A stretch of DNA of 64,000 nucleotides, taken from contig JAGQSC010000025.1 in assembly GCA_020439745.1 (NCBI GenBank), forward strand, positions 186,001 to 250,000. The letters run 5' to 3'. Below are positions 32,699-49,070 of the stretch, piece after piece; position 1 is the first letter of the stretch; the number at the start of each line of letters is the position of its first letter. The translations under genes and the position numbers were made by a program. This DNA comes from Acidobacteriota bacterium (lineage in GTDB: Bacteria > Acidobacteriota > Holophagae > Acanthopleuribacterales > Acanthopleuribacteraceae). Below the pieces are notes generated by a model. That model did no database searches and had not been told where the DNA came from. It worked only from the letters and a program-made list of their open reading frames with translations.

Positions 32699-32827
32699 CG
32701 CTGCCCCCAATTTTTTAACCTAAGATATCACCCGTTACGTACATACTGTGGTTGCACGTTCTAAGTTGCGAGCGATGCGTCGTGCATTGTAGACGTTTGA
32801 CGGCTGTGAATAAAGGTGGTTGAGAAA

Positions 32828-34915
32828 TTGAGAAAGCTATGTTGGGCCTTCGTTGCGCTGATGATGATGCTGGGTTGTGGCAACGAAAGAGTCATTCGCG
32901 CTAAGGGTCCCATCCTATTGGTCACGGTAGATACGCTGCGCTCGGACCATCTACCAACATATGGCTATAACGGTGTGGTCACCCCTGCAATCGATTCGTT
33001 GGCAAGTGAAAGCCTGGTCTTTGAAAGCGTGTATGCACATACGCCACTCACTTTGCCTTCTCATGCATCCATGATGACGGGCATGTGGCCCAACTACCAT
33101 GGGGTGCGGGACAACTTTGGTTATCAATTGGCCGACGAGCGCGAGACCTTAGCTGAAAGATACCAGGCAGCTGGTTATCGAACGGGCGCTGTAATTTCAT
33201 CGATGGTGCTGCGTCAGTCGACTGGAGTGGCTCAGGGATTTGATGACTATAATGATCAAATCCGTCGAGGCATGCGAACCGGGATTGTCAATTACGCAGA
33301 ACGAGTGGGGGAAGAGACGCTTGCCCTGGCCCTGGATTGGCTGCACCAACAAGAGGACAATCAGTTTTTTTACTGGATTCATCTTTATGACCCGCATGCA
33401 CCTTATGAGCCACCAGAGCAGTTTCGAGGACATCCAAACCCATACGACGACGAAATAGCCTACGTAGACCACCTACTCGGCCGATTGTTCTCTGAACTGA
33501 AAAGCATGGGCTTGTACGATGAGGCCGTAATCATTTTGACGTCTGATCACGGAGAGGGGCTAGGTGACCATGGCGAACAGCAACACGGCATGCTCTTGTA
33601 CCGCGAGTCGTTACAGGTGCCCCTGATCCTGAAGCTACCTCGTGGAATTCGTGGTGGTGAACGCATTTCGGGAACCGTAGGCGTGACCGATGTTGCACCG
33701 ACGCTGTGCACGCTAAGCGGTCTGGCACCCCTGGGCGATGGCCTAGACCTGTTGGCGCCCATTCCCAAAGAACGTATGGTTTTTTCCGAGTCACTCAATG
33801 CCAAGATCAACTTTGGTTGGTTTCCACAGAAATCAGTGATTTCGGGGAATCTACATTTCATTCGCGGCGCGGATGAACAACTCTTCGATCTGGTTTCGGA
33901 CCAAGCCGAGAAGGACAATCTCTTGCCAGGCACACGTGTGCCTGTTCCTTTTGAGGACCTGTTGGAGTCGATCGGCACCGGCGAGTCACAGACGGTTGAA
34001 ATATCAGGTGAGGACGAGGCCATGTTGAGGTCTTTGGGTTATGTGGGTGGATTTGGAGAAACTGCCATGACCACTGATCTCGACGAATCGTCGTTTTTGA
34101 AGCTGTTTAATCTGGTGGGCGAATGCAACATCATGCTGAATCGCGGAGAAACCAAAAAGGTCGTGAAACTGCTAGAACCAGTGGTTGCACGATACCCATC
34201 CATGATTGATGCTCGGCTGGCACTGGGTTCCGCGTACTTCAATCTGGGTCTGTTGAGCGAAGCAGAGAGCCTGCACCTGGAAACGCTGGCTTTGTCGCCA
34301 CAACATCTCACTGCCATGGTGGCTGTGATTGAGGTGAAACTTGCTCTGAAAAAGCGAGGGGAGGCTGAAAAACTGGCAGAGAAGGCCGTTCAAACTGCGC
34401 CCAACCTCGGTCCCCGGCAAGTGATCCCCATTCTCAATCAATACGATGTTTTCCCTTTGGCGGAACTCATGAGTGCCAAAGCCATCGAAACAGACCCCGA
34501 TTTTGCTTTTGCTTATGTCGTGCTAGCGAGAGGAGCGGTAAGTTCCGGTGAATTTGAAAAGGTCGAACCTTACTTGATGCAAGCAGCAGACAGAGCGATG
34601 GGCGATTCCCACCTGCTGGCCACGATCGCTTATTGCCGTGCTGATGCCGCTGCGCGCCAAGGCCAACAAGCAGACCGCCTTTTTCAGCAAGCGATTGAAC
34701 TGGACGGCAACCATGATGGTGCACGATGCGGATTTTCTTTATACCTATTCAGTCAAAACAGACCAGATGAAGCCGTAGCCAACATGATTCAATGGTTGGA
34801 AGCCCATCCTACTGCCAATACGTATCGCCGTGTTGCCCAGCTATTCGAACTCGTAGGTTTGGAAGACCTGGCGAATGAGACCCGATCACGTATGCCTTCA
34901 GCATTTGATCCCTAA
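32828..34915 (+). CDS. sulfatase-like hydrolase lipoprotein with C-terminal TPRs
   Basis: About 695 residues from the TTG at 32828, chosen because AAAGGTGG is 8 bases upstream; GTG at 32816 is also in frame. Lipoprotein signal LRKLCWAFVALMMMLGC. The alkaline-phosphatase/sulfatase domain (about 25-380) has metal sites LLVTVDTLRSDH and LTSDHGEGLGDHGEQQHG. The usual Cys/Ser-x-Pro-Ser-Arg site reads T-L-P-S-H (TPLTLPSHASMMTGMWP), so no formylglycine can form and Thr would be the nucleophile, as in phosphatase or phosphoethanolamine-type relatives. Residues about 420-690 are TPRs (SMIDARLALGSAYFNLGLLS). It probably works in the periplasm. Confidence 0.9.
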   Translation: MRKLCWAFVALMMMLGCGNERVIRAKGPILLVTVDTLRSDHLPTYGYNGVVTPAIDSLASESLVFESVYAHTPLTLPSHASMMTGMWPNYHGVRDNFGYQLADERETLAERYQAAGYRTGAVISSMVLRQSTGVAQGFDDYNDQIRRGMRTGIVNYAERVGEETLALALDWLHQQEDNQFFYWIHLYDPHAPYEPPEQFRGHPNPYDDEIAYVDHLLGRLFSELKSMGLYDEAVIILTSDHGEGLGDHGEQQHGMLLYRESLQVPLILKLPRGIRGGERISGTVGVTDVAPTLCTLSGLAPLGDGLDLLAPIPKERMVFSESLNAKINFGWFPQKSVISGNLHFIRGADEQLFDLVSDQAEKDNLLPGTRVPVPFEDLLESIGTGESQTVEISGEDEAMLRSLGYVGGFGETAMTTDLDESSFLKLFNLVGECNIMLNRGETKKVVKLLEPVVARYPSMIDARLALGSAYFNLGLLSEAESLHLETLALSPQHLTAMVAVIEVKLALKKRGEAEKLAEKAVQTAPNLGPRQVIPILNQYDVFPLAELMSAKAIETDPDFAFAYVVLARGAVSSGEFEKVEPYLMQAADRAMGDSHLLATIAYCRADAAARQGQQADRLFQQAIELDGNHDGARCGFSLYLFSQNRPDEAVANMIQWLEAHPTANTYRRVAQLFELVGLEDLANETRSRMPSAFDP

Positions 34916-34971
34916 AAAATCGGATTCTTGAGACAGGTATTGGACACAATTGTAAAAAAATCAAGCGATTG

Positions 34972-35003
34972 AATTCAAAGTTTTGGATGAGACGCTTTGA
35001 ATT
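34972..35003. repeat. 9-bp inverted repeat downstream of the sulfatase gene
   Basis: AATTCAAAG (34972-34980) and CTTTGAATT (34995-35003) pair perfectly across 14 bases. No T-run follows. It may be a weak terminator or a regulatory site before the TonB receptor; the remaining 270 bases before 35187 show no gene. Confidence 0.4.
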
Positions 35004-35186
35004 ACGAGTTTCCTATTCGAGCAAGTGTATGTAGTTTGTTTTCATAGACTTAGTGATGGTTGCTTGTTGGCATAAAAGTTGATAACATCCAGCCGTAACA
35101 TGCAACTCCATCGAACTGGCGCCGGTCAGGCTGCTTAGCGAGGAGAGGCCTGTTGATACTCGCATACGCAATTAGGAGATTGGTAA

Positions 35187-38100
35187 ATGAGACCAAATCG
35201 AACGAAATGGGCAGGAATAGCCACTTTTCTGCTGCTCTTTTCCGGGTCGGCATTTGCACAACAAACCTCAAGTATTCACGGGAATGTTGTCGATTCAAAT
35301 GGCGATCCTCTTCCTGGTGTTGTGGTAACGATTGAGTCCCCGAACATGCAGGGAAGCAGATCGGTAACCACAATGGCCAATGGTGACTTTTTGTTCCGTT
35401 TGTTGGTTCCTGGCGATTACACCGCCACAGCCACCATGCCGGGCATGCAAACCAGTAAAACGACCATTGCATTGGGCTTGGGTCAAACCTCAAAGCCGCG
35501 TATGGTCCTTCAACCTGAGGCAACTTCAGAAGAGTTGGTCGTTACCGCAAGTGTGGATCCTGTCCTTGACACCACCGATGTGGTCGCTAACTTCGACGCT
35601 GAATTTGTCGACCAGATCGCATCTGGCCGCAATATCCGCGATCGTGCACTGCTCGCGCCAGGCACCACTCAAGGTGGTCCCAACGGAGCGGTATCGATCT
35701 CAGGTGCACAGACGTTTGAGAACTCTTACCTGCTGGATGGCGGTAACATCTCTTTCGATAACGTGCGCGGCAACGCCAGTTTCATCGTGATTCCCGACGC
35801 CATTCAGGAAACCACCGTTTCGACGGCCTCAGTTTCTGCTGAATTTGGTCAGTTCACGGGTGGTCTGGTGAACAGCATCACCAAGTCCGGTGGTAACAAC
35901 TTCTCGGGTACTTTGCGCACCGCGCTGCGCAATGATGACTGGGTAGGCACCACACCGCTTGAAGACGACAACAATGTTGAGCGCATTTCTGACATCGTAC
36001 GCACCGATTCCATTTCAATCGGTGGCCCGATCATGAAAGATCGTATTTGGTTCCACATCAGTGGTTCCAGACTGCGCAGTTCGCAGCCCGGTCAGTTGAT
36101 CGCAGCGATCCCGTTGACGGACGCAGAAGCCGCTGATCTCGGTCTTCCCGGTGGGCAAACCGCTCCCGGCGTACGCGCCGTGGACAGCTCGCGTGAAAAC
36201 GACAAGATCAACCTGAAGTTGACCGGCAAGATTGTTGAGAACCACGAAATCGTTCTTTCTTATTCAGAAGAAAAAGACGATTCGCTGAACGATACGTCTC
36301 GCGGTCCTTTGGGCATTCGCGCTGCGTTGACGAACAATGTTCCTGAAGAACATCTGTCAGCGAACTACCGCGGTATCATCACGCCTGCCTTCACGATTGA
36401 AGCGTTGTACACTGAAAAGAAAGCAACCTTTGAAGGCTCAGGTGCCGACATCAGTGCGGACCTCCGTTTCACGGATACGGTTCTGCGTGATCGCAACTTT
36501 GGTGGCCGTTTCGGTGCCGAAGTTTTGGCTTCACCTACGGACGAACATCGCGACAACGAATCCTTCATGGTGAAGGCTTCTTACTTCCTGACCACCAACA
36601 GCGGTGGTTCCCACGACATCGTTTTTGGTGCTCAAGATCAAACCGATATGCGCATGGGTAACAACCACCAATCAGCTTCTGGTTGGGAATGGTGGGATGT
36701 TTATCCCATCTGGGATAGCCCTGACCAATTGGAACCCACCCCTGTGTTCAGTGGTGGCGGCCCTAACACCTTGCCCACGCAGTTGATTTGGTGGCCGATT
36801 GTGAATGAGTCCATCGGTTCCGACTTCAACACGCAATCTATTTTCGTCAATGACCGTTGGTCGTTGAACAACCATTTGTCCTTTAACTTGGGCGTTCGTT
36901 ACGACAAGAACGATGCTTCTGCTGAAGACGGCAAGCCCGTTTCCAAGTCAGATCACATCAGCCCGCGCCTCGCGGTTGAGTATGATCTGGCCGGTGATGG
37001 CAAGCACCGTTTCTCCTTGAGTTATGCTGAGTATGTAGCTCGCTTGAATGACGCAGGTCAACAGGCTTCTACTGCTGGTAGCCCCAGTTATGCCGTTTGG
37101 TACTACTACGGACCAACCACCACGAGCATTCAAGAAGTGTTCGAGTGGATTGGCATCAACAACGGCGGTAATGCGGATTCAACTCGTGATCCCTTTGTCA
37201 ACGATTTCTGGCAAACGGCTCCGTTCACCAACATCAACCTTTCTCCAGATCCCGCCAACATTATTACAACTGTTGATCCGGACCTGGAGTCTCCCAACGC
37301 GGAGGAATTCCGTGTGGGCTATAGCACGCGTTTCGATGCGGGCTTCTTCAAGGCTGATGTCATCATCCGTGACTACAAAGACTTCTACGCAACACACCTG
37401 TACCGCGAAGAAGCCGATCCGTCGATCTTCGGCATCACGCCTGCTGGCGCTGATCGCCGTCTGTTGACCAACGATGACGAAAACTATGAACGTACTTACA
37501 ATGCCGTTCAAATGCAGGCCAGCTATCGCGTAAGCGATAACTTCAACCTGTTCGGCAACTACACTTGGTCACAAGCCATTGGTAACTTCATTGGTGAGAC
37601 TGAAGGCCAAGCTGCCGTATCCGGTTCTTCAACGACGTTCTATCCCGAGTACCATGCATTTGCTGCTCGCAACCCGCGCGGTTACCTGGATGGAGACCAA
37701 CGTCATATCGGTCGCATATTCGCGATTTACGATCTGAAGACCCAATTCGGTGACTTCAACTTCAGTGCCACGCAGCGTTTTGAGTCGGGAACGGCTTACA
37801 GCGCAGCCTTCACTGTGAACTTCCGTAACCGTGAAGAAGAGTACGGTCTGCCGGCTCGTGGCTCACTGGGCTACGCCAGTAACCAGAACACCACGACATA
37901 CTATGTCGACGGCAAACGCGGCAACTTCAATGGAGATGACATGACTCAGACCGATCTGGGTGTGAACTACTCCATCAAGCTGTGGAAGATTGAGCTGTTC
38001 GCAGAACTCAACCTGTTCAACATCTTCGATGAAGACGCAGCCGTGTACGCCAACAACGGTTGGATCGATACAACCGTTACCGCAACTGGCGTTCCGTTCA

Positions 38101-38246
38101 ACCTGTTCACGGAAACACCTCAAGAAGGTGTCCACTACAACTTCGGTCCGACCTTCGGCCAGCCGTTGGAAGGAAACGGTGTGACGGGTAACAGCGCTTA
38201 TCAACAGCCTTTCACCTACACACTCGACCTGGGTATCCGCTTCTAA
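35187..38246 (+). CDS. Oar-like TonB-dependent outer-membrane receptor
   Basis: 1019 residues; TTAGGAG before the ATG. Signal peptide ends FLLLFSGSAFAQ. Residues about 28-110 are a carboxypeptidase-regulatory-like domain (SIHGNVVDSNGDPLPGVVVT, NGDFLFRLLVPGDYTATA), then the TonB plug (about 130-240, SGAQTFENSYLLDGGNISFD, VSAEFGQFTGGLVNSITKSG) and a large barrel ending in LDLGIRF with the terminal Phe needed for outer-membrane insertion. Oar-type receptors import large substrates such as siderophores, glycans or peptides. Codons favour AAC, TTC and CGC/CGT more than in neighbours, which suggests strong expression. It has its own terminator. Confidence 0.93.
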   Translation: MRPNRTKWAGIATFLLLFSGSAFAQQTSSIHGNVVDSNGDPLPGVVVTIESPNMQGSRSVTTMANGDFLFRLLVPGDYTATATMPGMQTSKTTIALGLGQTSKPRMVLQPEATSEELVVTASVDPVLDTTDVVANFDAEFVDQIASGRNIRDRALLAPGTTQGGPNGAVSISGAQTFENSYLLDGGNISFDNVRGNASFIVIPDAIQETTVSTASVSAEFGQFTGGLVNSITKSGGNNFSGTLRTALRNDDWVGTTPLEDDNNVERISDIVRTDSISIGGPIMKDRIWFHISGSRLRSSQPGQLIAAIPLTDAEAADLGLPGGQTAPGVRAVDSSRENDKINLKLTGKIVENHEIVLSYSEEKDDSLNDTSRGPLGIRAALTNNVPEEHLSANYRGIITPAFTIEALYTEKKATFEGSGADISADLRFTDTVLRDRNFGGRFGAEVLASPTDEHRDNESFMVKASYFLTTNSGGSHDIVFGAQDQTDMRMGNNHQSASGWEWWDVYPIWDSPDQLEPTPVFSGGGPNTLPTQLIWWPIVNESIGSDFNTQSIFVNDRWSLNNHLSFNLGVRYDKNDASAEDGKPVSKSDHISPRLAVEYDLAGDGKHRFSLSYAEYVARLNDAGQQASTAGSPSYAVWYYYGPTTTSIQEVFEWIGINNGGNADSTRDPFVNDFWQTAPFTNINLSPDPANIITTVDPDLESPNAEEFRVGYSTRFDAGFFKADVIIRDYKDFYATHLYREEADPSIFGITPAGADRRLLTNDDENYERTYNAVQMQASYRVSDNFNLFGNYTWSQAIGNFIGETEGQAAVSGSSTTFYPEYHAFAARNPRGYLDGDQRHIGRIFAIYDLKTQFGDFNFSATQRFESGTAYSAAFTVNFRNREEEYGLPARGSLGYASNQNTTTYYVDGKRGNFNGDDMTQTDLGVNYSIKLWKIELFAELNLFNIFDEDAAVYANNGWIDTTVTATGVPFNLFTETPQEGVHYNFGPTFGQPLEGNGVTGNSAYQQPFTYTLDLGIRF

Positions 38247-38264
38247 GCCTTACCCGCAACCTTC

Positions 38265-38294
38265 AAAAAGGCCCGCTTCGGCGGGCCTTTTTTT
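38265..38294 (+). terminator. rho-independent terminator after the TonB receptor
   Basis: AAAGGCCCGC-ttcg-GCGGGCCTTT, a 10-bp stem capped by UUCG, continuing into a T-run to 38294, 19 bases after the stop codon. Very strong. Confidence 0.95.
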
Positions 38295-38407
38295 GTGTCT
38301 GATCAATGCGACAGCGACGAAATCAATGTACCGATCGATTGGCTTGGGGTTTTCTGCTAGAGTGTCCTTCAGTTTGAAATGACAATTCCGAGAAGAAGGG
38401 TAATACC

Positions 38408-38998
38408 ATGCTAGACAGAAACACCTTTTTTGTGCGCGAACATGCAGGCGTTTTGAAATTGACGGATACCTACGACATCCTGGATCCCGAGACCCAGGAA
38501 CAAATAGGGATCGCCAAGGAGAAGGTCAGTGGTTTCGTGAAGTTTTTGCGGTTGTTGATCCACAAGAACCTCATGCCGACCAGGATTGAAGTGCACCAGG
38601 GCAAATCGTTCGACAACCCTGCCAATCTACTGTTCACGATTCGAAGGGGCGTAGGTTTCTTTAGGACCAAAGTGGAGATCATCAAAGGCAACGGCGAGCC
38701 TGTGGGCTTCATGCGAAGCAAAGCCTTTTCTATTGGCGGTGCTTTCAACGTGTTCGATGCCAGTGGCAATCAGGTTGCAAAAGTTAAAGGAAATTGGAAA
38801 GGATGGACCTTCCGATTCCTCGACATGAATGAAAATGAGTTGGGTACGGTAACCAAGAAATGGGCAGGTCTAGGCAAGGAATTGTTCACGACCGCAGATA
38901 ACTACATTATTCAATTACACGGTGAGCCATCGCCTGGCTTAGCTACCGTGTTGCTTGCCGCCGGCTTGGCCATAGACACAGTTTTCAAAGAAAAATAA
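38408..38998 (+). CDS. LURP-one-related/phospholipid-scramblase-like protein
   Basis: 196 residues, GAAGGG before the ATG. Sequence runs in paired beta-strands around a central C-terminal helix, as in the Tubby/scramblase fold: TYDILDPETQEQIGIAKEKV, EPVGFMRSKAFSIGGAFNVF, DASGNQVAKVKGNWKGWTFR, LGTVTKKWAGLGKELFTTAD and a hydrophobic C-terminal helix LATVLLAAGLAIDTVF. Bacterial members have no known activity; a membrane- or lipid-binding role is likely. It stands alone on this strand. Confidence 0.82.
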   Translation: MLDRNTFFVREHAGVLKLTDTYDILDPETQEQIGIAKEKVSGFVKFLRLLIHKNLMPTRIEVHQGKSFDNPANLLFTIRRGVGFFRTKVEIIKGNGEPVGFMRSKAFSIGGAFNVFDASGNQVAKVKGNWKGWTFRFLDMNENELGTVTKKWAGLGKELFTTADNYIIQLHGEPSPGLATVLLAAGLAIDTVFKEK

Positions 38999-39043
38999 CC
39001 TCTCGGCGGATCGTTGGGGGCGGGCAATCTGCCGTGCAGGTCG

Positions 39044-39160
39044 CTAAAACCCGCCCTCAGCGCCATCCACCATCGCTAATTTAGCGGCTTCAATAAGGGT
39101 CCTAAACGGTTTCGATCGCCTTGGCTGTTCAATACATGGAACGATTTTCTGACCTGTCAT
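39044..39160 (-). CDS. candidate 38-residue small protein at the end of the FG-GAP/TPR operon
   Basis: ATG at 39160 with GGAGG exactly 7 bases upstream, followed by 38 codons and TAG at 39044. The peptide begins MTGQKIVPCIEQPRRSKPFR, continues with a helix-like segment (TLIEAAKLAMVDG) and ends AEGGF. It holds one Cys and no signal peptide. It lies 95 bases after the third FG-GAP gene on the same strand, so it may be the last gene of that operon. Being short, it could also be accidental; the ribosome site is the main support. The remaining bases of 38999-39255 show nothing else I can name. Confidence 0.45.
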   Translation of the reverse strand: MTGQKIVPCIEQPRRSKPFRTLIEAAKLAMVDGAEGGF

Positions 39161-39255
39161 ATGGTGACCTCCAAGAGTAGTGCCTCGTCTTTTTTGTTAC
39201 TCTATCGGTTCACTGTGGATATCAGTGACGGGCAAAAGTTCTTAAGCAATGATGC

Positions 39256-40866
39256 TCAATCCGGGTTCAAAGTCTTTTTGATGACCACATACTTGTTTCG
39301 TTCGGATATTGGATGATGAGATTGGGACCCGTCAGGCCACCGCACCCGTACTTCCAATTCAACAGCGGGGTCGACCAACCCGAACACGATCCGCTGATCC
39401 GAGTGGCACATAAAGCTTCCACCACTTGTCACATCCCTCATAGCGATCAACTTTTGGTTGGCCATGAAGCTGACCCTGGCTCCGTAGGCCTCTCGATTCA
39501 TCTTAGAGCCAAGAAGTTGGATGCCCAGCCAATGGTTCATAGGTGAACGATTCTCAAGCAAATCCACCCGATCATTGATATTGGTGATCAACACATCCAC
39601 GCGGCCATCGTTATTGTAGTCGGCAGTTGCCAGCCCGCGACTGACCTTTGGTTTTGTGAAGTCACCCAGGTCCACCAAAGTGCCATCTGCACGGCATTCG
39701 AAGAGTTGGTTGGCTTGGGCATAGGTCTGATTGGAGTCCAACTTTTCGATGACATCCATCACATGACCGTTGGCAACCATGAGATCCAAATCGCCATCTC
39801 GATCAAAATCGAAGTATTGAGTACCCCACCCAACTGGTTTACGGGATGCGTCACCCAGGCCATAAGCCTGGGTCGCATCTTCAAATACATAACCTTGGCG
39901 GTTTAGGTACAGGGTGTTGGTTTCCATGGCGTAATGCGTCATGATCACGTCCATCCAGCCATCGTTATTTACATCTCCCAGAGCGATACCCATCCCTGCT
40001 TCAGCTTCGCCCTTATGATTGAATCCGAGACCTGAGAGCATCGCCTGGTCCTCGAATCGGCCTTCGCCATCATTGATGTAAAGGCGGTTCATGGTGCCGT
40101 CGTTGGCAACGACTATGTCGAGATCTGCGTCATTATCCAGATCAGAAAGCATGACGCCAAAGCCTTTCTCGTCGGGACCGGAAACAATCCCGCGTTGGGC
40201 ACCTTCCTCCACAAATCGACCGGATCCCTGGTTGATATAAAGTTGATCTGGAAGCCCTTTAAATGCAGTGGGTCGACAATAGCTCACGATTTGCGATACC
40301 GCGCTTCCACACTGAGGATTGTTGGTGTAGCTGAAATCCACGTAATTGGCCACGTATAGATCCAGGTCACCATCACCATCAAGATCGCCGAAACTGCATC
40401 CGGTACCCCAAGCCTCACCGCGTATTCCCGCTTGGTTGGTGATGTTCTCAAACGAGCCATCACCGCGGTTGCGGAAAAGCACATCGCGACCAAAATTCGT
40501 AACAAACAGGTCAGGCCAACCGTCCCCGTCCACGTCTCCGCTGCAGACGCCCATACCGCAACCCGTGTCACCCACACCCGCTATTGACGTTACGTCGACG
40601 AATTGACCATGGTCATTGCGATACAGTCTGTTGGGACTTGGCTCCGTTTCTGGACTTCCAGGCGTTGGGCATCCATTGACCAAATAGAGGTCCATGTCCC
40701 CGTCATGATCGTAGTCAAACCAGCAGGCGCCAGCGCCTGTGGTTTCGATATAGTAGTTTTTACCGGATCGAAAGTCTTTGTGAATGAAGTCGATGCCCCG
40801 TGAAACAGGCACAAAAGGGGGATCACCGACGAGGGCGATGAGAAAAACTAAGGTTGAACAAACCAT
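39256..40866 (-). CDS. exported FG-GAP/ASPIC-UnbV (CRTAC1-like) protein, copy 3
   Basis: 536 residues; short signal peptide MVCSTLVFLIALVGDP. About seven FG-GAP/VCBS blades with calcium loops: FDYDHDGDMDLYLV, GDVDGDGWPDLFVT, GDLDGDGDLDLYVA, SDLDNDADLDIVVA, GDVNNDGWMDVIMT, FDFDRDGDLDLMVA, ADYNNDGRVDVLIT. The C-terminal ASPIC/UnbV domain has LGIQLLGSKMNREAYGARVS, SHQRIVFGL-like segment and VRVRWPDGSQSHHP. It overlaps the upstream TPR gene by 19 bases. It is the most diverged of the three copies (FIHKDFRSGKNYYIETTGAG at the N-terminus where copies 1 and 2 have GMTG). Probably periplasmic or surface-located, calcium binding. Confidence 0.88.
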   Translation of the reverse strand: MVCSTLVFLIALVGDPPFVPVSRGIDFIHKDFRSGKNYYIETTGAGACWFDYDHDGDMDLYLVNGCPTPGSPETEPSPNRLYRNDHGQFVDVTSIAGVGDTGCGMGVCSGDVDGDGWPDLFVTNFGRDVLFRNRGDGSFENITNQAGIRGEAWGTGCSFGDLDGDGDLDLYVANYVDFSYTNNPQCGSAVSQIVSYCRPTAFKGLPDQLYINQGSGRFVEEGAQRGIVSGPDEKGFGVMLSDLDNDADLDIVVANDGTMNRLYINDGEGRFEDQAMLSGLGFNHKGEAEAGMGIALGDVNNDGWMDVIMTHYAMETNTLYLNRQGYVFEDATQAYGLGDASRKPVGWGTQYFDFDRDGDLDLMVANGHVMDVIEKLDSNQTYAQANQLFECRADGTLVDLGDFTKPKVSRGLATADYNNDGRVDVLITNINDRVDLLENRSPMNHWLGIQLLGSKMNREAYGARVSFMANQKLIAMRDVTSGGSFMCHSDQRIVFGLVDPAVELEVRVRWPDGSQSHHPISERNKYVVIKKTLNPD

Positions 40867-42746
40867 TTTGTCGGTAACTCTTCATAGGGAGATTGGGTGG
40901 CGAAAGACTGGTAGATCTGTTGCCATACTGTTTTCTGAGTCTGATTTTCAGTGGAATTGATAAGGTTCGTCATTTCTTCTGCGGCTTGTGCAAACAGCCC
41001 TTGACCCGCAAGCGCAAAAGCGTAGGTTTCACGGACCGTCGGCGATGCGTTTTTCTGCAGCATGTGAGACACCGTTAGAAACGCATTGGGGATGTTACGC
41101 AAAGTCGAATCGGGGCACGCAATTTGGATCCTGGCCCGGATGAGCTGCAACCGCGTGTGAGCCGGCCATTTCTCCAAGGATCGATCCAGGACCCGTGTGG
41201 CTTCCAACCACTGCTCGTCCAAAATCAATGCAACGGACTCGCCGAGGAAGGCGTCGGGTTGGTCAGGTGACAACGCTTGAGCGGCGCGCATGGCAGCGGC
41301 AGCTTCATCATATCTACGCAGGGTTCCTAACAGCGATCCCATTCGATAGTGCTGTGCACTTGATTCAGGTTGCAGTGTTAATGCTTGCTGTTGAAATCGC
41401 AGCGCTTCATCAAAACGTTGTAAAGAAACAAGATTCTCAATCAACAATTCCAACACGCGAATTCGGTCATTCGGATCCGTGTAAAGGTCTAATGCCTGTT
41501 CTAGGTAAATGTTGGCCGATTGCTTGTTCCCTTGTTTTAGCAGTGCGGATCCCATTTGTTCATGTGCCCAAACGTGTTCAGAATCCAGCTTCAGAATTCG
41601 GTCGAGATCCTGAATCTCAGCTTGTACCTGATCGAGATACTGGTACATCTTTGCCCGGGCGTTGAGCAGCGTGATGTCAGTGGGATGAGCATCGATAAGC
41701 CTGTTTGCAAGACGCAAGGCCTCATCGGACTCACCTGATTGTGCGAGCCACTGCGCATGGCGCAGACATGCGGGCACCAAATCAGGATCGTAGTTACAGG
41801 CTTGGCGATCCTGCTCACTCGAGAGCTGTGGTTCTTGACGGCTTTGATAAATCAGCGCCGCGGCGTAATGCAAACGTGCGGCTTGTTTCGATGCACCTTG
41901 GGCGTGCCACTGGTTCGCGGTTGCAATTAGGTATTCAACAATCCCTGAGCGCTCAGTTAGGCCTGCAACAACAAAGGCTTCGAAATCTTTGGGCACAAAC
42001 ACGTCAGCCATGGCCATAGCCAACGTCACCTGCACAGCCATGGTCGTCACGGTATCGTTCAAATCACTGAGATGTGGGTCCGGGATTTGGATCTTGCCAT
42101 CTCCGCGTTTCAGCAGGTGGGCATTCGCTTCGTCTGTTTTGCCCAGTTTTCGGTAAGCCTGAGCCAATGGATAGTGGACCGTGCTCGCTTGGGGCTGCAG
42201 TTCAAGCGCTGCCAAATAGGATTGAACAGCTAACTCGGGGTGTTCCAAAACCCCATGTGCCTGCGCCAGGCCAAACCAGGCCGCTGCCTGGTTGGGCAGT
42301 AGGGAAGTCGCTTTTTCGAAACATTCAAGCGCCAAATTCGCATCGCCGCCATCTAAGTGGATTTGACCGAGGCGCATCCAAATCCATGCGTCCTCTGGGT
42401 ACTTCTCCAACAAGGAATGGTAAAGCCCAACGGCTCGATTCAACTCACCACGAATGCGATAGAGCAGGCATGCATAATAAGGCCATCTCATATCGGTTGG
42501 ATCCAGATCGTGTGCGTTTTCATAGGCTGCGAGGGCGGCTTCCTCTAATTCCATGGCGTGATAGGCCATGCCCAGGAACCCTAACTGCTCGGCAGCTGCG
42601 GGATCGTTGTGGTCCAGGGAAGATTTTACGCGTTCCGCCATCTCCGCGAGCCCAGACTGAATGGCGGGATGCAGTTGCGACAGGCTCGGCTCGACTAAGG
42701 GTGTCTTCAGCGTTTGTTGACAAAGGAACCACCAACAGATAATCAC
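40848..42746 (-). CDS. TPR protein, copy 2 of the FG-GAP/TPR operon
   Basis: 632 residues; GTG start overlapping the stop of the upstream FG-GAP gene (GTGA). The N-terminus MIICWWFLCQQTLKTPLV is hydrophobic and could be a signal or anchor. More than ten TPRs follow (AWIWMRLGQIHLDGGDANLA, AAAWFGLAQAHGVLEHPELA). The block TVHYPLAQAYRKLGKTDEAN, HLLKRGDGKIQIPDPHL is shared with the other TPR copy (TIHYPLGLAYRRAGNIEKAR ... RGDIPISFPDPFL), so the two are paralogues and not just generic TPRs. Likely a scaffold or partner for the neighbouring FG-GAP proteins. Confidence 0.88.
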   Translation of the reverse strand: MIICWWFLCQQTLKTPLVEPSLSQLHPAIQSGLAEMAERVKSSLDHNDPAAAEQLGFLGMAYHAMELEEAALAAYENAHDLDPTDMRWPYYACLLYRIRGELNRAVGLYHSLLEKYPEDAWIWMRLGQIHLDGGDANLALECFEKATSLLPNQAAAWFGLAQAHGVLEHPELAVQSYLAALELQPQASTVHYPLAQAYRKLGKTDEANAHLLKRGDGKIQIPDPHLSDLNDTVTTMAVQVTLAMAMADVFVPKDFEAFVVAGLTERSGIVEYLIATANQWHAQGASKQAARLHYAAALIYQSRQEPQLSSEQDRQACNYDPDLVPACLRHAQWLAQSGESDEALRLANRLIDAHPTDITLLNARAKMYQYLDQVQAEIQDLDRILKLDSEHVWAHEQMGSALLKQGNKQSANIYLEQALDLYTDPNDRIRVLELLIENLVSLQRFDEALRFQQQALTLQPESSAQHYRMGSLLGTLRRYDEAAAAMRAAQALSPDQPDAFLGESVALILDEQWLEATRVLDRSLEKWPAHTRLQLIRARIQIACPDSTLRNIPNAFLTVSHMLQKNASPTVRETYAFALAGQGLFAQAAEEMTNLINSTENQTQKTVWQQIYQSFATQSPYEELPTKWFVQP

Positions 42747-44395
42747 TCGGTCGTTCCTTTCCCACGAACCAGCGAGTGGTAACGATTGGGTGTCAAAGGA
42801 CCAAACTGCTCCACGACGCCGTCGCTATATCGCACCTCCAATTGTACGGGACCGTGCTCTTCGCCAAGGCCAAACAACACCCGTGGGTCTTCACTCGACG
42901 CGTAACTGGAGACGGAATGGGCGCGACGCAATAGTTTTCTTCCGGAAGCCGTGGTGACGATCAACTCTGCATGCATCACATACCAAGCACTTTCTTCGCA
43001 TAGAGCGATGCCTATCCACGCGTATTGATTTGGGTGACGGTTGACCAACAAGCGTACTGGACCGTTGTTATTGGTGACCAGTAGATCGATGTCTCCGTCG
43101 TTATCAAAGTCGCCTGCAGCGGAACCCCGACTCACCTCGGAGAAAGGCTCAATAGCTACCTGACTAGCGTCCACATATTTGCCGCTACCTTTGTTCTGAA
43201 AAAAATGATTGGGCTGGTGAAGGGGGTAGGGGTCGTTGACGCGCTGCAATTCCTCAATAGCATAAACATTCCCATTTGCAATAAATAGATCAAGCCAGCC
43301 ATCGCGATCCACGTCTATCCAGTTGACGCCGAAACCCGTAGCACGACGAGACGAAGCAGCGATGCCGGTCGATAGTGTTTGATCTTCAAAATAGCCTTTT
43401 TGCTGTGAATAAAGTGTGTGGGTTTCACTGCTCAGATGTGTAACGATGATGTCTAAATCACCATCACCGTCGCTGTCTTCGCAAGCCACGCCCATGGATG
43501 CTTCAGGAGCGCCCCGGCTGTTAACAGCACAACCCCATTCCAGTGCCCGGTTGACCAAGACCCCGTTGTTTGGGTTGAGCCACAAGATGTTGGGGTCGCC
43601 ATCGTTGGCGATGTAGAGGTCTAGCCTGTTGTCTCGGTCAGCATCAAGCGCAATTGCGCCCAGCGCCGATCCAAACTCGGTAAGTTTCTGACTGACATCT
43701 TCAAATGTACCGCCTTTGTTGATCAATAGTCGGTCGCGTGCATCGGGGTAAAGTGATGGGCCACAATAGCCTTTACTGCCAGATTTTGTCGGGCAAATTC
43801 GATGGTTCTCTAGGGTGAATTCAACATAGTTGGTAATCAGCAGGTCAGGTAATGTGTCGTTGTTGATGTCGACAAATAGGGCTGCCACACTCCAACGGTC
43901 ATCTCCTGATTTTGTCCTTTCTGTGACATCCTCAAATGTTCCATTGCCGAGGTTTCGCCAGAGTTGGTTTGGGCCGTAGTTCGTTACATACAAGTCTGGC
44001 CATCCATCCCTGTCAAAGTCATCCACAACAGCACCCATCCCGTAACCAGCGGCTGATATGCCAGACTTTTGCGTGACGTCGACAAATGATACTTTACCGG
44101 TTGCCCCATCTAAGTCATTGCGGAAGAGTCTGTCACTCAATGGGCTTTTTGGGGGGAAAAGCATGGTTCCAGAACCTATCTTCGCACCCTGTACCAGATA
44201 GACATCCAGGTCACCGTCGCGGTCGTAGTCAATAAACGCACAGCCGCTTCCCATGGTTTCGAGAATGGTCCATTCGCCGGTCATGCCATTGGTGTGTGTA
44301 AATGTTAACCCCATTTGTGATGCTTGATCGATAAGCCAGGGCTCTTGGGCAAGCGCCAAAACGGACATCCATGCAACGAGCACGTGTTTCATCAT
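42743..44395 (-). CDS. exported FG-GAP/ASPIC-UnbV (CRTAC1-like) protein, copy 2
   Basis: 550 residues, signal peptide MMKHVLVAWMSVLALAQ. N-terminal family motif GLTFTHTNGMTGEWTILETM, then repeated loops FIDYDRDGDLDVYLV, DDFDRDGWPDLYVT, VDINNDTLPDLLIT, DADRDNRLDLYIA, EDSDGDGDLDIIVT, DVDRDGWLDLFIA, GDFDNDGDIDLLVT. The C-terminal ASPIC/UnbV domain ends LEVRYSDGVVEQFGPL. Its start overlaps the stop of the upstream TPR gene as ATGA and its own stop overlaps the next TPR gene as GTGA. It is closest to copy 1 (46272-47918), which shares NGMTG and ILE.MG.GCA.ID. Confidence 0.9.
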   Translation of the reverse strand: MMKHVLVAWMSVLALAQEPWLIDQASQMGLTFTHTNGMTGEWTILETMGSGCAFIDYDRDGDLDVYLVQGAKIGSGTMLFPPKSPLSDRLFRNDLDGATGKVSFVDVTQKSGISAAGYGMGAVVDDFDRDGWPDLYVTNYGPNQLWRNLGNGTFEDVTERTKSGDDRWSVAALFVDINNDTLPDLLITNYVEFTLENHRICPTKSGSKGYCGPSLYPDARDRLLINKGGTFEDVSQKLTEFGSALGAIALDADRDNRLDLYIANDGDPNILWLNPNNGVLVNRALEWGCAVNSRGAPEASMGVACEDSDGDGDLDIIVTHLSSETHTLYSQQKGYFEDQTLSTGIAASSRRATGFGVNWIDVDRDGWLDLFIANGNVYAIEELQRVNDPYPLHQPNHFFQNKGSGKYVDASQVAIEPFSEVSRGSAAGDFDNDGDIDLLVTNNNGPVRLLVNRHPNQYAWIGIALCEESAWYVMHAELIVTTASGRKLLRRAHSVSSYASSEDPRVLFGLGEEHGPVQLEVRYSDGVVEQFGPLTPNRYHSLVRGKGTTE

Positions 44396-46275
44396 GGCGG
44401 TAGCAGGAACGCCAAGTCATCAGGGACAACCGGCGGTTGAGATTGTTGATAACGAACAAGGTTCCCATACAAACGACTCACTAATATGCGGTCATCGGTA
44501 GACCGAACGGCATCAATGAGCGCCGCCTGCCGGGAGGCTGCCTGCTCGTATGCGCCACTCAAAGCGAGTGTCATAGCGTGAAGCTCTTCTTCGGCAATCC
44601 CGTGTTCTGTGTCCACTTGTGCGCGAGACAACGCAAGGAGCTCCCCAATATTCAAGGAGCCCGGATGGCGCAATCCAAAACGCAGCATGAGCTGAGCTAA
44701 GCGCCTTTGACTGGGTAAGGCTTTTCGACTTTGTTCCAAAAAACTCAGCGCTTGGGCTGAGTCATCAAGAAGTATGGCCGCAGCGTAGCGGCCAAAATGG
44801 GCCAACTCAAGCTGGTCATCGAGCTCAATCACAGAATTATAGATTTTGATGGCATCGGCGTAGCGATCGGCTGTTGCCATGATTGCTGCTAGTTGAAGGC
44901 CGATTGCAGGGTCGTTTGGCGCCATAAGCCAAGCTCGCTTCAAGTAGCCGATCGCTTGATCAGGTTGATTGCGCCTCAATTCCAAGCGGGCTGCGCCAGC
45001 GAGGCAGGCCAGTTGCTGGTCTTTGGGGATTTCAACAGAGAGCAATTGCTCGTATGCACGAAGGGCGTCTTCAGAATGGCTGGATTCTTGAAGTTGAGCG
45101 AGCCTGAGTCGAGCCATGTGGGTCTCTGGGGCGTATTCAAGTAAGGTTTCCAAATCCTCAATGGCGGATTCCATCAGGCCGAGTTCCGCCGAAACTTGAG
45201 CGCGGTCCAGACGCGCATCGGTTTCTCTTGGCCAAGTATTCAGAATGACGTCATAAACTTCTTTTTCCCGTTTCTTTTCACCTGTTTTGGCGAAGATTCT
45301 TGCCTGGCTGTACAGAGAAGCCATCAGTTCGTTGTCAAATCTGAACGCTTGCCGGTAGTGTTCAATGGCATCGTCAAGTTGGCGGTGCCCCTCGCTCAGA
45401 ATACCCATCGCAAAGTGGAGGTACGCACGCGCATTGTCGGTGAGGGTGCCCTTCTTTTCGTGAAAGTCGTATGCATCGCTCAGATACTTGACGGTACCTT
45501 GCTTGCCGGCGAGATGTGCATGTATGTACCCCTCGAAGTCACGTACATTCAAACGCGGTTCTTCTTGTGCCATGGCTACGACCACCATGAGCGATGAGGT
45601 GGTGGTGATTGCCGAAATTCTGGCCAGGAAGGGATCTGGAAAACTAATGGGAATGTCGCCACGTTGAGACAGGTGCTCACGTGCCTTTTCGATATTTCCG
45701 GCGCGCCGATAGGCCAAACCAAGCGGGTAGTGAATGGTCGTCGCATCGGGCTGCAGTGCGAGCGCTTTGCTCATCAAGTCGATTGCCTCGTCGAAGTGAC
45801 CCATGTCTGCTTCTGCTCGACCCAACCCGAACAGTGTGAACGCGTCGTTGATCTTCTCAGCCTGACGAAATGCTCGAGCTGCATCTTCTGGCCTATTGAG
45901 ATCCAGAAAAACATAACCCAACCGCACGGACGCAAAAGAATGAGAAAGTTCGGATTCGATGGCTGTCTTAAAGTAACCAACCGCTTCGTCTAAGTGTCCC
46001 GTTTCAACCGCTATCATGCCCAGATAATAAGACCAGGGGTGAGGTGTCGTTTGGCTAGCTATTTGATATGCCTGTTCTGCTTCAATGCGGAAACTGTGGG
46101 CATGATAGATGAGGCCCAGTCCCCCAATGGCTTCCGCTTGAATTTCCGGGGTGGCCTGGTCCAATGCGGCTATGACCGCATGCTGTGCTTCGATGATGTG
46201 AGCCTGTAACACGGGTTTCAAGGGAGACAAGTCGGGTTTAGGCACTTGGAATGCTAGCAAAGCAAAGGCGATCAT
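44392..46275 (-). CDS. TPR protein, copy 1 of the FG-GAP/TPR operon
   Basis: 627 residues from the ATG at 46275, which overlaps the stop of the upstream FG-GAP gene (ATGA); the frame is open further upstream but that would overlap by 60 more bases. Hydrophobic N-terminus MIAFALLAFQVPKPDL, possibly a signal peptide. TPRs run through the whole chain (HSFASVRLGYVFLDLNRPED, FTLFGLGRAEADMGHFDEAI, AGAARLELRRNQPDQAIGYL). It carries the shared block IHYPLGLAYRRAGNIEKARE and RGDIPISFPDPFL also seen in copy 2. Probably works with the adjacent FG-GAP proteins. Confidence 0.88.
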   Translation of the reverse strand: MIAFALLAFQVPKPDLSPLKPVLQAHIIEAQHAVIAALDQATPEIQAEAIGGLGLIYHAHSFRIEAEQAYQIASQTTPHPWSYYLGMIAVETGHLDEAVGYFKTAIESELSHSFASVRLGYVFLDLNRPEDAARAFRQAEKINDAFTLFGLGRAEADMGHFDEAIDLMSKALALQPDATTIHYPLGLAYRRAGNIEKAREHLSQRGDIPISFPDPFLARISAITTTSSLMVVVAMAQEEPRLNVRDFEGYIHAHLAGKQGTVKYLSDAYDFHEKKGTLTDNARAYLHFAMGILSEGHRQLDDAIEHYRQAFRFDNELMASLYSQARIFAKTGEKKREKEVYDVILNTWPRETDARLDRAQVSAELGLMESAIEDLETLLEYAPETHMARLRLAQLQESSHSEDALRAYEQLLSVEIPKDQQLACLAGAARLELRRNQPDQAIGYLKRAWLMAPNDPAIGLQLAAIMATADRYADAIKIYNSVIELDDQLELAHFGRYAAAILLDDSAQALSFLEQSRKALPSQRRLAQLMLRFGLRHPGSLNIGELLALSRAQVDTEHGIAEEELHAMTLALSGAYEQAASRQAALIDAVRSTDDRILVSRLYGNLVRYQQSQPPVVPDDLAFLLPP

Positions 46276-47918
46276 GGTCGTTTCCCTTTGCCGAACACCA
46301 GTGTGTGATAGGTTCCGGTTACTAGGTTCGACCATGTGTCAACCTCACCGTTGGGCCACTTTACCTCCACCTGACAGGGTGCGTGGTTTTGGCCAAGCCC
46401 AACAAGGATCCGAGCATCGTTTGAAGAGGCGAAGGAACCATCGGTACTGGAACGCCGTCGCTTCATTGTTGAATCTTTTTGTGAGACGGTGATCAGCGCC
46501 CCTTCGCAATGAGATGGCCCAGCCTTCAATTGGATGCCTAGCCAGTTGGCGTTGTGACCTACGCGATTGATGAGAAGCCGTGCTGGGCCGTTGTTGTTGA
46601 CAAGCAGGATGTCTGTATCGCCGTCGTTGTCGATGTCACCAAAGGCTGCACCGCGGCTGACTTCGGACTGCTTGAATGCGGCTCCAGCTGAAGCCGTGAC
46701 CTCTTCAAAACGCCATGGAGTAATAGCGCGATACAGTTGGTTGGTTTGATGAAGTGGAAAGGGCTCGTGTTTGAGATGTTCCAGGATATGTACGGCGCCG
46801 TTGGCTACAAAAAGATCGAGTAGTCCATCGTTGTCGTAGTCCAGCCAGCCGGTTCCAAACCCTGTCTTGTCAAGGCTGGATGCACCCAAAGCCGCAGCCA
46901 ACGTAACATCAGAGAAAAGACCGTTGCCATCATTGCGATAGAGCGTGTTGGTCTCGCCGTTCAAATGCGTCATGAAGATATCTTGATCTCCGTCGCCATC
47001 GATGTCCGCCGCTTGAACACCCATGCTGGCCTCAGTCGCGCCGTTGATGTTCAACGCGCAACCTGCCATGATTCCATCCTCCTCAAATCTGTCTCCGCGA
47101 TTGATCCATAGAAAATTGGGATCGGCGTCGTTGGCGACATAGATATCGGTCTTGTGGTCATCATTGAAATCAGCGGCGATCACACCTAGTCCTGAGCCCC
47201 GTTGCCCGTCCAACTTCCAGGTCTTCGTGGCATTGTCAAACTTCCCTTGACCCTTGTTCAGGAAGAAGACATCGGGCGCATCCTCGTAGGAGTTGGGACC
47301 GCAATAGTCTTGTACGCCAAAAGGGGACAGGCAAATCTTGTGATTTTCAAACGTAAACTGGACGTAGTTAGCCACATAGAGATCCAAGAATCCGTCACCG
47401 TCCGCATCAAAGAAGGATGCCGAGACCCCAAACCCCGGATCGCCTGTTTGGCTGAGTGCCGTAATATCTTCGAATTGACCGTTTCCCTTGTTGCGCCACA
47501 GCTGGTTTGGACCGTAGTTGATCGTGTAAATATCGGTCCAGCCATCCCGATCCACATCGGCTTGAGCGACACCGATACCGTACCCAAAAGCCTTAATGCC
47601 AGATGCGTCCGTGATGTTTGTAAACTGCAGTTGTCCAGTTTCCACCAGCAGGTTTTTGTAGAGTTGGTCACCTTGATGGGTCTCGGATGAAGGATGGGTG
47701 AGGTTGCCTGGTAACCTATGACCCTGCACGAAATAGACGTCAAGATCACCATCGTTGTCGATATCGATGAGTGCACATCCGGGACCCATTTCCTCGAGGA
47801 TGTAGAACTGGCCTGTCATCCCGTTTTGGTGGACGAACTTCAGACCCACGTGGTTAGCGGATTCAATCCATGGGTCGTTGTCGCCTACCACCCATAGCAG
47901 GAACCAAACTAGCGTCAT
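46272..47918 (-). CDS. exported FG-GAP/ASPIC-UnbV (CRTAC1-like) protein, copy 1
   Basis: 548 residues; GAGGG just before the ATG at 47918 and a short signal peptide MTLVWFLLWVVGD. The N-terminus has GLKFVHQNGMTGQFYILEEM. Calcium loops: IDIDNDGDLDVYFV, ADVDRDGWTDIYTI, FDADGDGFLDLYVA, ADFNDDHKTDIYVA, ADIDGDGDQDIFMT, LDYDNDGLLDLFVA, GDIDNDGDTDILLV. The ASPIC/UnbV domain ends CQVEVKWPNGEVDTWSNL. It is 43 bases after the COX2-like lipoprotein gene on the same strand and begins the alternating FG-GAP/TPR series. Confidence 0.9.
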   Translation of the reverse strand: MTLVWFLLWVVGDNDPWIESANHVGLKFVHQNGMTGQFYILEEMGPGCALIDIDNDGDLDVYFVQGHRLPGNLTHPSSETHQGDQLYKNLLVETGQLQFTNITDASGIKAFGYGIGVAQADVDRDGWTDIYTINYGPNQLWRNKGNGQFEDITALSQTGDPGFGVSASFFDADGDGFLDLYVANYVQFTFENHKICLSPFGVQDYCGPNSYEDAPDVFFLNKGQGKFDNATKTWKLDGQRGSGLGVIAADFNDDHKTDIYVANDADPNFLWINRGDRFEEDGIMAGCALNINGATEASMGVQAADIDGDGDQDIFMTHLNGETNTLYRNDGNGLFSDVTLAAALGASSLDKTGFGTGWLDYDNDGLLDLFVANGAVHILEHLKHEPFPLHQTNQLYRAITPWRFEEVTASAGAAFKQSEVSRGAAFGDIDNDGDTDILLVNNNGPARLLINRVGHNANWLGIQLKAGPSHCEGALITVSQKDSTMKRRRSSTDGSFASSNDARILVGLGQNHAPCQVEVKWPNGEVDTWSNLVTGTYHTLVFGKGKRP

Positions 47919-47961
47919 TGACCCTCACTGTGCGTTGCTCGCAAAATTCCTCTATCCCGCA

Positions 47962-48399
47962 TCAAGTCTCGGGTGGTCCCATCAATTCTGACATGGCCAC
48001 ATGGAATTTGCCAGGATCGAGCACGATCAACTGGCCATCTAATTCTTCAAAACGCGGGAGTCCACACATTTGGCCGCCGTCCATGGTGAATCGGCCTGGA
48101 GTTGAGGTCTCGAAATCTACCGAGAATGGTACTTCAGGTACGGCCATTTGATTGAGCCCAAGTTGAGGCACCGACCAAGTGTAGATGTAGTCCTTACTGT
48201 CGAGATCCACGTGAATACGACGTCCCGCTGGAACATAGATGTCTCGGATGCCTTCTATGTCGTCCTCTGTACCTAATAACAAATCAGGTCCGGGATAGGT
48301 CACAATCCAGCGATGGTCTTCTCCGACGACATGGATGGGAAAGACAGGTTGTGGCCCGCAAGTGATCAATGCCAATGCCAATGCAGGAACCATCCTCAT
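47962..48399 (-). CDS. COX2-like cupredoxin lipoprotein with a degenerate CuA site
   Basis: About 145 residues if the start is the ATG at 48399 (48393 also possible; no good ribosome site is seen). Lipoprotein signal MRMVPALALALITC. The rest follows cytochrome oxidase subunit II: IYVPAGRRIHVDLDSKDYIY, TWSVPQLGLNQMAVPEVPFS, TSTPGRFTMDGGQMCGLPRF. In true CuA proteins the corresponding residues are H(S)FWVP and GQCSELCG..H..M; here the His is Tyr, the first Cys is Gly, the Glu is Gln and the second His is Arg, with only one Cys left. The protein probably cannot hold CuA and may serve another binding role. It follows the rhodanese gene and precedes the FG-GAP operon. Confidence 0.75.
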   Translation of the reverse strand: MRMVPALALALITCGPQPVFPIHVVGEDHRWIVTYPGPDLLLGTEDDIEGIRDIYVPAGRRIHVDLDSKDYIYTWSVPQLGLNQMAVPEVPFSVDFETSTPGRFTMDGGQMCGLPRFEELDGQLIVLDPGKFHVAMSELMGPPET

Positions 48400-48434
48400 G
48401 ATCCATGAAACGGAAAACAAATGGATATGTTGCT

Positions 48435-48920
48435 TCACGGTAACGGAGCTCGGTGGCTTTCCAGCAGTAAGCATCCCCACTTCGCATCATAAGGATGCAC
48501 GAGCGAGGTGGAGCCCTGGTCGTTCACCATGGGGAGGTTCAAGTTCGCCCATTCAAACAAAGAACCCTCCAAGTTCTGTACGTTGGTAAAACCGAGTTGG
48601 GCTAGTTGTTGCGCGGCTTCGGCTGATCGATAACCCACGGAGCAGTAGAGCGTAATGGGTGTGTCCTTGGGTGATTGGTCTGCATCCCATGTTGCGAAGC
48701 GAACGGCACCTTCCATGTGGCTCAGGGCGTATTCATCCGCACTGCGTACATCCAGTACCAGCCGATTCGGCTTCTCCTTCTGGAAGTTTTCAATGGTGAC
48801 AAAAACGACATCTGGAAATCGATCACGGATCATGGCCTTCAATTCGGGCCAACTGATCCAGTCACATGGTTGCAATGAGCAGGCCTGGATGGTCAGTGAA
48901 AGGATTAGAAAACGAAGCAA
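48435..48920 (-). CDS. rhodanese-domain lipoprotein
   Basis: 161 residues from a TTG start at 48920 with AGGA 7 bases upstream. The N-terminus LLRFLILSLTIQAC has a lipobox Cys. The rhodanese domain (about 40-130) includes RLVLDVRSADEYALSHMEGA and the active-site loop YCSVGYRSAEAAQQL with catalytic Cys, then GFTNVQNLEGSLFEWANLNL. Rhodaneses carry sulfane sulfur; an exported one may move sulfur or assist thiol chemistry. A short C-terminal tail (VNDQGSTSLVHPYDAKWG) resembles that of exported rhodaneses in marine bacteria. It is first in a minus-strand operon with the COX2-like and FG-GAP/TPR genes. Confidence 0.88.
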   Translation of the reverse strand: MLRFLILSLTIQACSLQPCDWISWPELKAMIRDRFPDVVFVTIENFQKEKPNRLVLDVRSADEYALSHMEGAVRFATWDADQSPKDTPITLYCSVGYRSAEAAQQLAQLGFTNVQNLEGSLFEWANLNLPMVNDQGSTSLVHPYDAKWGCLLLESHRAPLP

Positions 48921-48980: not shown

Positions 48981-49070
48981 GGAGAGATGCCAGAGTGGTC
49001 GAATGGGGCAGACTCGAAATCTGTTGATCCGCTTGCGGATCCTAGGGTTCGAATCCCTATCTCTCCGCCA
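48981..49070 (+). tRNA. tRNA-Ser (anticodon CGA)
   Basis: Acceptor strands GGAGAGA (48981-48987) and TCTCTCC (49060-49066), discriminator G and an encoded CCA (49068-49070). Anticodon stem GCAGA/TCTGT around loop CTCGAAA with anticodon CGA at 49015-49017, reading UCG. A long variable arm (TTGATCCGCTTGCGGATCCTA region) marks it as a class II serine tRNA. T loop GTTCGAATC is normal. It is the only tRNA I can see in the window. Confidence 0.96.

Follow-up and report, generated by a model that had tools for sequence, protein, structure and literature searches.

Here we present an analysis of a 64,000-nucleotide stretch of an Acidobacteriota genome (contig JAGQSC010000025.1, positions 186,001 to 250,000; hereafter the window), centred on a seven-gene minus-strand array at 48920-39256 in which genes for FG-GAP/UnbV propellers (FG1, FG2 and FG3) alternate with genes for tetratricopeptide repeat (TPR) proteins (TPR1 and TPR2). 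The principal finding is that a propeller gene followed by a TPR gene constitutes a real and widespread pair. The interpretation we prefer, to which we assign slightly less than an even chance, is that the array encodes an exported complex of CRTAC1-type, Ca2+-binding propellers and their cognate TPR solenoids, scaffolded in the outer envelope and probably serving in ligand binding or assembly there.

All seven open reading frames (ORFs) were found at the positions and in the order given by the first-pass annotation of the window, which had been made from the sequence alone. The unit opens with a gene for an exported rhodanese-domain protein (48435..48920), followed after 35 bases by the ATG of a COX2-like, lipoprotein-like protein (47962..48399; the ORF opens at 48480, with 48399 the likely start) and, after a further 43 bases, by the ATG of FG1 (46272..47918). 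From there on the genes overlap, and the junctions proposed earlier could all be read from the sequence: an ATGA at 46275-46272 joins FG1 to TPR1 (44392..46275, the longer ORF start at 46335 being unnecessary), a second at 44395-44392 joins TPR1 to FG2 (42743..44395), the GTG start of TPR2 (40848..42746) overlaps the FG2 stop as GTGA at 42746-42743, and TPR2 shares 19 bases, 40866-40848, with FG3 (39256..40866). Scans of the array region for consensus promoters and terminators performed no better than on shuffled sequence and thus gave no sign of internal elements splitting the array, the outcome that would have spoken against a single transcription unit; the seven genes are likely to form one operon. 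A tRNA-Ser gene (CGA, plus strand, 48981-49070), the sole match in an Rfam search, lies a mere 60 bases away from the start of the rhodanese gene, which could place the promoter of the array within or close to the tRNA gene.

The same-genus comparison consisted of one genome, G001, which carries the whole unit in identical order at 37-60% protein identity (rhodanese 47%, COX2-like 50%, FG1 56%, TPR1 38%, FG2 57%, TPR2 37% and FG3 60%). To look beyond the genus, contigs were scanned with FG sequences only, so that the search could not favour loci with TPR neighbours. Of the 11 FG relatives in named genomes that reach 560 bits, 8 have a same-strand TPR gene downstream, against 2/91 downstream and 0/91 upstream for control genes in the same loci. 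The clade that holds FG1 and FG2 comprises 22 rows (support 97), two of which, on cut contigs, were left out as not judgeable; a TPR gene lies directly downstream in 17 of the 20 evaluable members, the exceptions being L034, where it is divergent, and L018 and L024, where none is adjacent (L numbers denote loci). Its hosts are Acidobacteriota, Planctomycetota, Pseudomonadota (Marinicella, Lysobacterales) and one unassigned bacterium, and TPR neighbours also accompany other FG clades in Gemmatimonadota, Latescibacterota, Poribacteria, Fidelibacterota and Rhodothermia. An independent set, made up of the 29 best-matching FG1 relatives in further Acidobacteriota genomes, was counted by hand: an adjacent same-strand TPR gene was present at 16 of the 19 loci outside genus g79, in 14 cases downstream, and within g79 the upstream TPR gene mostly encodes a phosphatase-TPR protein. 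Four-base overlaps between FG and TPR genes are also seen in distant pairs (among them L062, L064, L069, L071 and L112), and single-chain fusions of the two occur in both orders, one of them, a TPR + FG-GAP + UnbV protein, inside the window (30086..32710, minus strand; 58% identity in G001). The pairing that the first-pass annotation had proposed is thus conserved in close relatives and in distant genomes alike. It had, however, been called obligatory, which is too strong, as FG3's clade and many UnbV genes elsewhere have no TPR gene directly downstream.

The trees permit a partial reconstruction of how the array arose. FG1, FG2 and their G001 orthologues form one clade (support 98 by SH-aLRT, the Shimodaira-Hasegawa-like approximate likelihood ratio test, and 100/96 in a second tree), as do TPR1, TPR2 and their orthologues (support 92). 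These sister groupings support a tandem duplication of an FG-TPR module that predates the split of the two genus members. The earlier proposal that the array as a whole grew by duplication of a two-gene module therefore holds for FG1-TPR1 and FG2-TPR2 but not for FG3, which groups in a clearly distinct clade (100/99) together with Poribacteria propellers that have their TPR gene upstream; the trees rule it out as a third copy. Genome G159 also has an FG-TPR-FG-TPR-FG layout (L199), but its two FG1-type propellers are not sisters, so such arrays have formed more than once and a common origin with the window array was ruled out, although the deep forks of that tree are weak. Across 22 pairs, FG and TPR tree distances are correlated (Mantel r 0.75, with 0/5000 permutations as high), a correlation to which shared species history contributes. 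In one pair of the window's genome the two genes lie on different contigs (FG at L018, TPR at L035), and both members still group with a G001 pair that has remained adjacent.

The FG proteins are bacterial homologues of CRTAC1, of the ASPIC/UnbV family. Pfam identifies FG-GAP_3 and UnbV_ASPIC in all three, with UnbV scores of 45.6, 43.1 and 42.8 bits for FG1, FG2 and FG3 against a cut-off of 23.4. The model of FG1 (pLDDT, the predicted local distance difference test, 91.7) retrieved murine CRTAC1 as its top structural match (9etn_A; E 1.2e-31; template modelling scores TM 0.74/0.73), followed by the GlcNAc-binding lectins PVL and AAL2 and by integrin alpha propellers; a profile search recovered 9etn at E 7.6e-31. 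Loops of the DxDxDGDxD type are conserved, and the propellers are predicted to bind Ca2+. The N-terminal block noted earlier as common to FG1 and FG2 is real and proved to characterise the FG-TPR clade as a whole. In animal CRTAC1 the domains come in the same order, FG-GAP repeats before UnbV (PF07593 with FG-GAP_3). Animal CRTAC1 is a secreted, stand-alone protein, whereas the genes for the array propellers come in several tandem copies and are paired with a TPR gene.

TPR domains were identified by Pfam in both TPR1 and TPR2, and the model of TPR1 is an all-helical solenoid (pLDDT 93.5) for which a structure search gave general TPR matches only; PDB matches include PA4667 and BcsC, which have envelope roles. 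P. aeruginosa PA4667 is a TPR solenoid that serves as a scaffold, as is proposed for the array proteins, but the resemblance is that of TPR repeats in general. To our knowledge PA4667 is not encoded together with a propeller. The sequence block described earlier for TPR1 and TPR2 was likewise recovered, and other TPR partners share it; mapped onto the TPR1 model, it spans two helices (about 179-203) and the following loop (204-214), where the solenoid has a conserved break. Both partners are probably exported, because almost all FG and TPR proteins checked carry an N-terminal hydrophobic segment, lipoboxes occur on the TPR and/or FG protein in several relatives (L061, L062, L067 and L068 among them), and the two are found fused. 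Export of both had been implied by the original proposal, and the present data do not place the TPR proteins in the cytosol with the propellers outside.

Taken together, these features would fit the following scheme. The propeller would be made immediately ahead of its TPR partner from overlapping, translationally coupled genes, and both would cross the inner membrane. The TPR chain, often lipid-anchored in relatives, may act as a scaffold that keeps the propeller in the outer envelope and connects it to outer-membrane machinery, while the ligand would most likely be bound by the propeller, on the cell surface or close to it. The array of this genus would derive from one ancestral FG-TPR pair by tandem duplication, with a further propeller, of a different FG clade, joining downstream and the rhodanese and a metal-less CoxII-like lipoprotein joining upstream; the result would be a multi-ligand version in which several propellers might provide more than one ligand specificity. 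The role would probably be ligand binding or assembly in the outer envelope.

It is possible, though we hold this more doubtful than the complex itself, that propeller and cognate TPR protein form a separate class of bacterial envelope machine that has not been described before, present in several phyla, modular (pairs, tandem arrays and fusions) and extendable with accessories such as the metal-less CoxII-like lipoproteins. If so, it would give the CRTAC1/UnbV family its first bacterial biochemical context. UnbV/CRTAC1 proteins range from bacteria to mammals, often with many per genome, and have no known bacterial function; an overlapping, conserved TPR gene is a concrete candidate partner, which opens this long-unassigned family to pull-down and deletion work. 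It also suggests an annotation rule based on context, by which a CRTAC1-type gene with an overlapping downstream TPR gene is treated as a unit. The component families are known, but we found no description of the cassette: a literature search outside most subscription journals returned no paper on FG-GAP/UnbV and TPR as a pair or cassette, and UnbV itself is rarely mentioned.

Several observations weigh against the exported, outer-envelope complex. Export was judged solely by hydropathy and lipobox motifs, and the signals of the window proteins are short, with few basic residues. TPR neighbours become rarer with more distant FG families (14/35 and 3/16). The suggested link to the outer membrane is also uneven. 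In its favour, an outer-membrane barrel lies near 12 of 22 FG-TPR loci (training loci excluded) compared with 2 of 20 random stretches, but nine of those twelve belong to genus g79. In the window, a CarboxypepD_reg protein with an OMP_b-brl_4/TonB-receptor-like barrel (35187..38246, plus strand; 82% identity in G001) forms a separate, convergent unit, and its closest relatives adjoin FG genes in 0 of 20 cases, so that a constant place for it in the FG-TPR system is unsupported and it may instead serve its neighbour, a lipoprotein-like protein with an alkaline-phosphatase-superfamily "sulfatase" domain and TPRs (32816..34915, plus strand; 56% in G001). A triad of barrel, TPR-phosphatase and FG gene was also considered and set aside as mostly the property of one genus: phosphatase-TPR genes were counted at 8/28 loci against 1/20 random stretches, and in 2 of 80 named FG loci. 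The resemblance to SusC/SusD uptake complexes, with their exported TPR-fold partner, surface ligand binder and nearby TonB-receptor-like barrel, is one of possible operation only: none of the seven genes has a SusD domain, and the window barrel is convergent, lies on the opposite strand and, judged by its own relatives, has no tie to the array.

The two upstream genes raise a different possibility, that of a redox- or copper-linked envelope module in which electron carriers of the periplasm or cell surface would dock on the propellers, with active roles in that chemistry for the rhodanese and the COX2-like protein. We consider this unlikely. The rhodanese (PF00581, 57.5 bits) keeps its catalytic Cys loop, CSVGYRS, in both genus members; its closest NCBIfam model, NF045521, scores 103 bits, under the cut-off of 145. 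The COX2-like protein (Pfam COX2, 24.3 bits against a cut-off of 22; TIGR02866, E 2.7e-11), with the motif DYIY...GGQMCGLPRFE, derives from the CuA domain of CoxB. CoxB, subunit II of cytochrome c oxidase, has CuA ligands His, CxxxC, His and Met and an N-terminal transmembrane hairpin. Both are missing from the COX2-like protein, a small, single exported domain encoded by a 172-aa ORF with one N-terminal hydrophobic stretch: in both genus members the first His has become Y, the first Cys G, the second His R and the Met E, leaving one Cys. A copper protein is thereby ruled out, and with it the copper site implied by the earlier term "cupredoxin". Both upstream proteins had been labelled lipoproteins. 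For the rhodanese this is doubtful, since the candidate lipobox Cys is absent from its orthologue in G001, and the COX2-like protein fits the label imperfectly. The neighbours of the COX2-like gene are FG, TPR and rhodanese genes, not oxidase genes. Nor do the two genes recur in the general system: among 80 named loci there were no COX2-like neighbours and one weak rhodanese, which rules out the pair as a general feature of the system.

What sustains a redox module comes mostly from other loci. The motif DYIY-(36 residues)-QMCG, lacking the CuA ligands, was found in 3 of 396 genomes of the phylum, in every case adjoining an FG-GAP/UnbV gene, and in G115 (L190, 9610-12742) a CuA-less COX2-like gene is divergent from an SCO1-FG-GAP-UnbV fusion that retains CxxxC and His. 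These cases offer a modest yet pointed hint of a redox or copper past. In the window's own genome, UnbV genes directly follow those for large cytochrome c554-type proteins (L015, 5761-10412; L023, 3729-7552). At L068 and L074, CytoC_RC cytochromes lie upstream of FG genes, and CRTAC1-family genes flank hydrazine-synthase-like genes (PMC12758564). In those hydrazine-synthase-like loci, as in the array, a CRTAC1-family FG-GAP gene adjoins a multi-gene cluster of putative complex subunits, but the array has no hydrazine-synthase-like subunits. Against such a module, the seven genes contain neither a heme motif nor a copper-ligand set, the cytochrome-paired FG genes of the family fall in other clades of the FG tree, and G115 is one independent observation.

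The TPR protein might alternatively be a secretion or assembly factor, a dedicated chaperone or docking lipoprotein that folds the propeller and places it in or through the outer membrane without remaining as a permanent subunit. This too seems improbable to us. The order of FG then TPR with four-base overlaps would suit a substrate-chaperone pair, envelope TPR proteins are among the PDB matches, and genes for PPIC-type prolyl isomerases lie beside FG-GAP/UnbV genes at L024 (322-6932) and L055 (18266-19900). Single-chain fusions in both orders better fit a lasting partnership, however, and many FG families have no TPR neighbour at all. That the two families have no joint function, both being expanded in these genomes and adjacent through inherited tandem duplication, is very improbable: FG genes abound (14 UnbV genes in the 5.1 Mb genome), TPR proteins are common and synteny within the genus could by itself reflect recent ancestry, but the adjacency is far above that of control genes and extends across phyla, the FG and TPR trees are congruent, the partners occur fused, and they have been kept after separation (L018/L035).

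Conserved synteny with G001 extends beyond the seven genes, over about 30086-48920, the left flank being common to both genomes. The right flank is not conserved: the tRNA-Ser and a BamB-like propeller gene occupy it in the window, and a MoxR-like AAA gene, named from its sequence, in G001. The protein at 32816-34915 lacks the CxPxR formylglycine motif of arylsulfatases and has TLPSH in its place. Relatives of the window barrel often adjoin relatives of this phosphatase-TPR protein (L277, L278, L279, L283 and L290); CarboxypepD_reg barrels also lie directly beside FG-TPR pairs in several Acidobacteriota (L061, 12504-15896; L197, 16837-18999; L198, 10605-13781). Between the barrel gene and the array, the window carries a scramblase-family (LURP-one-related) gene at 38408-38998, with none at that place in G001.

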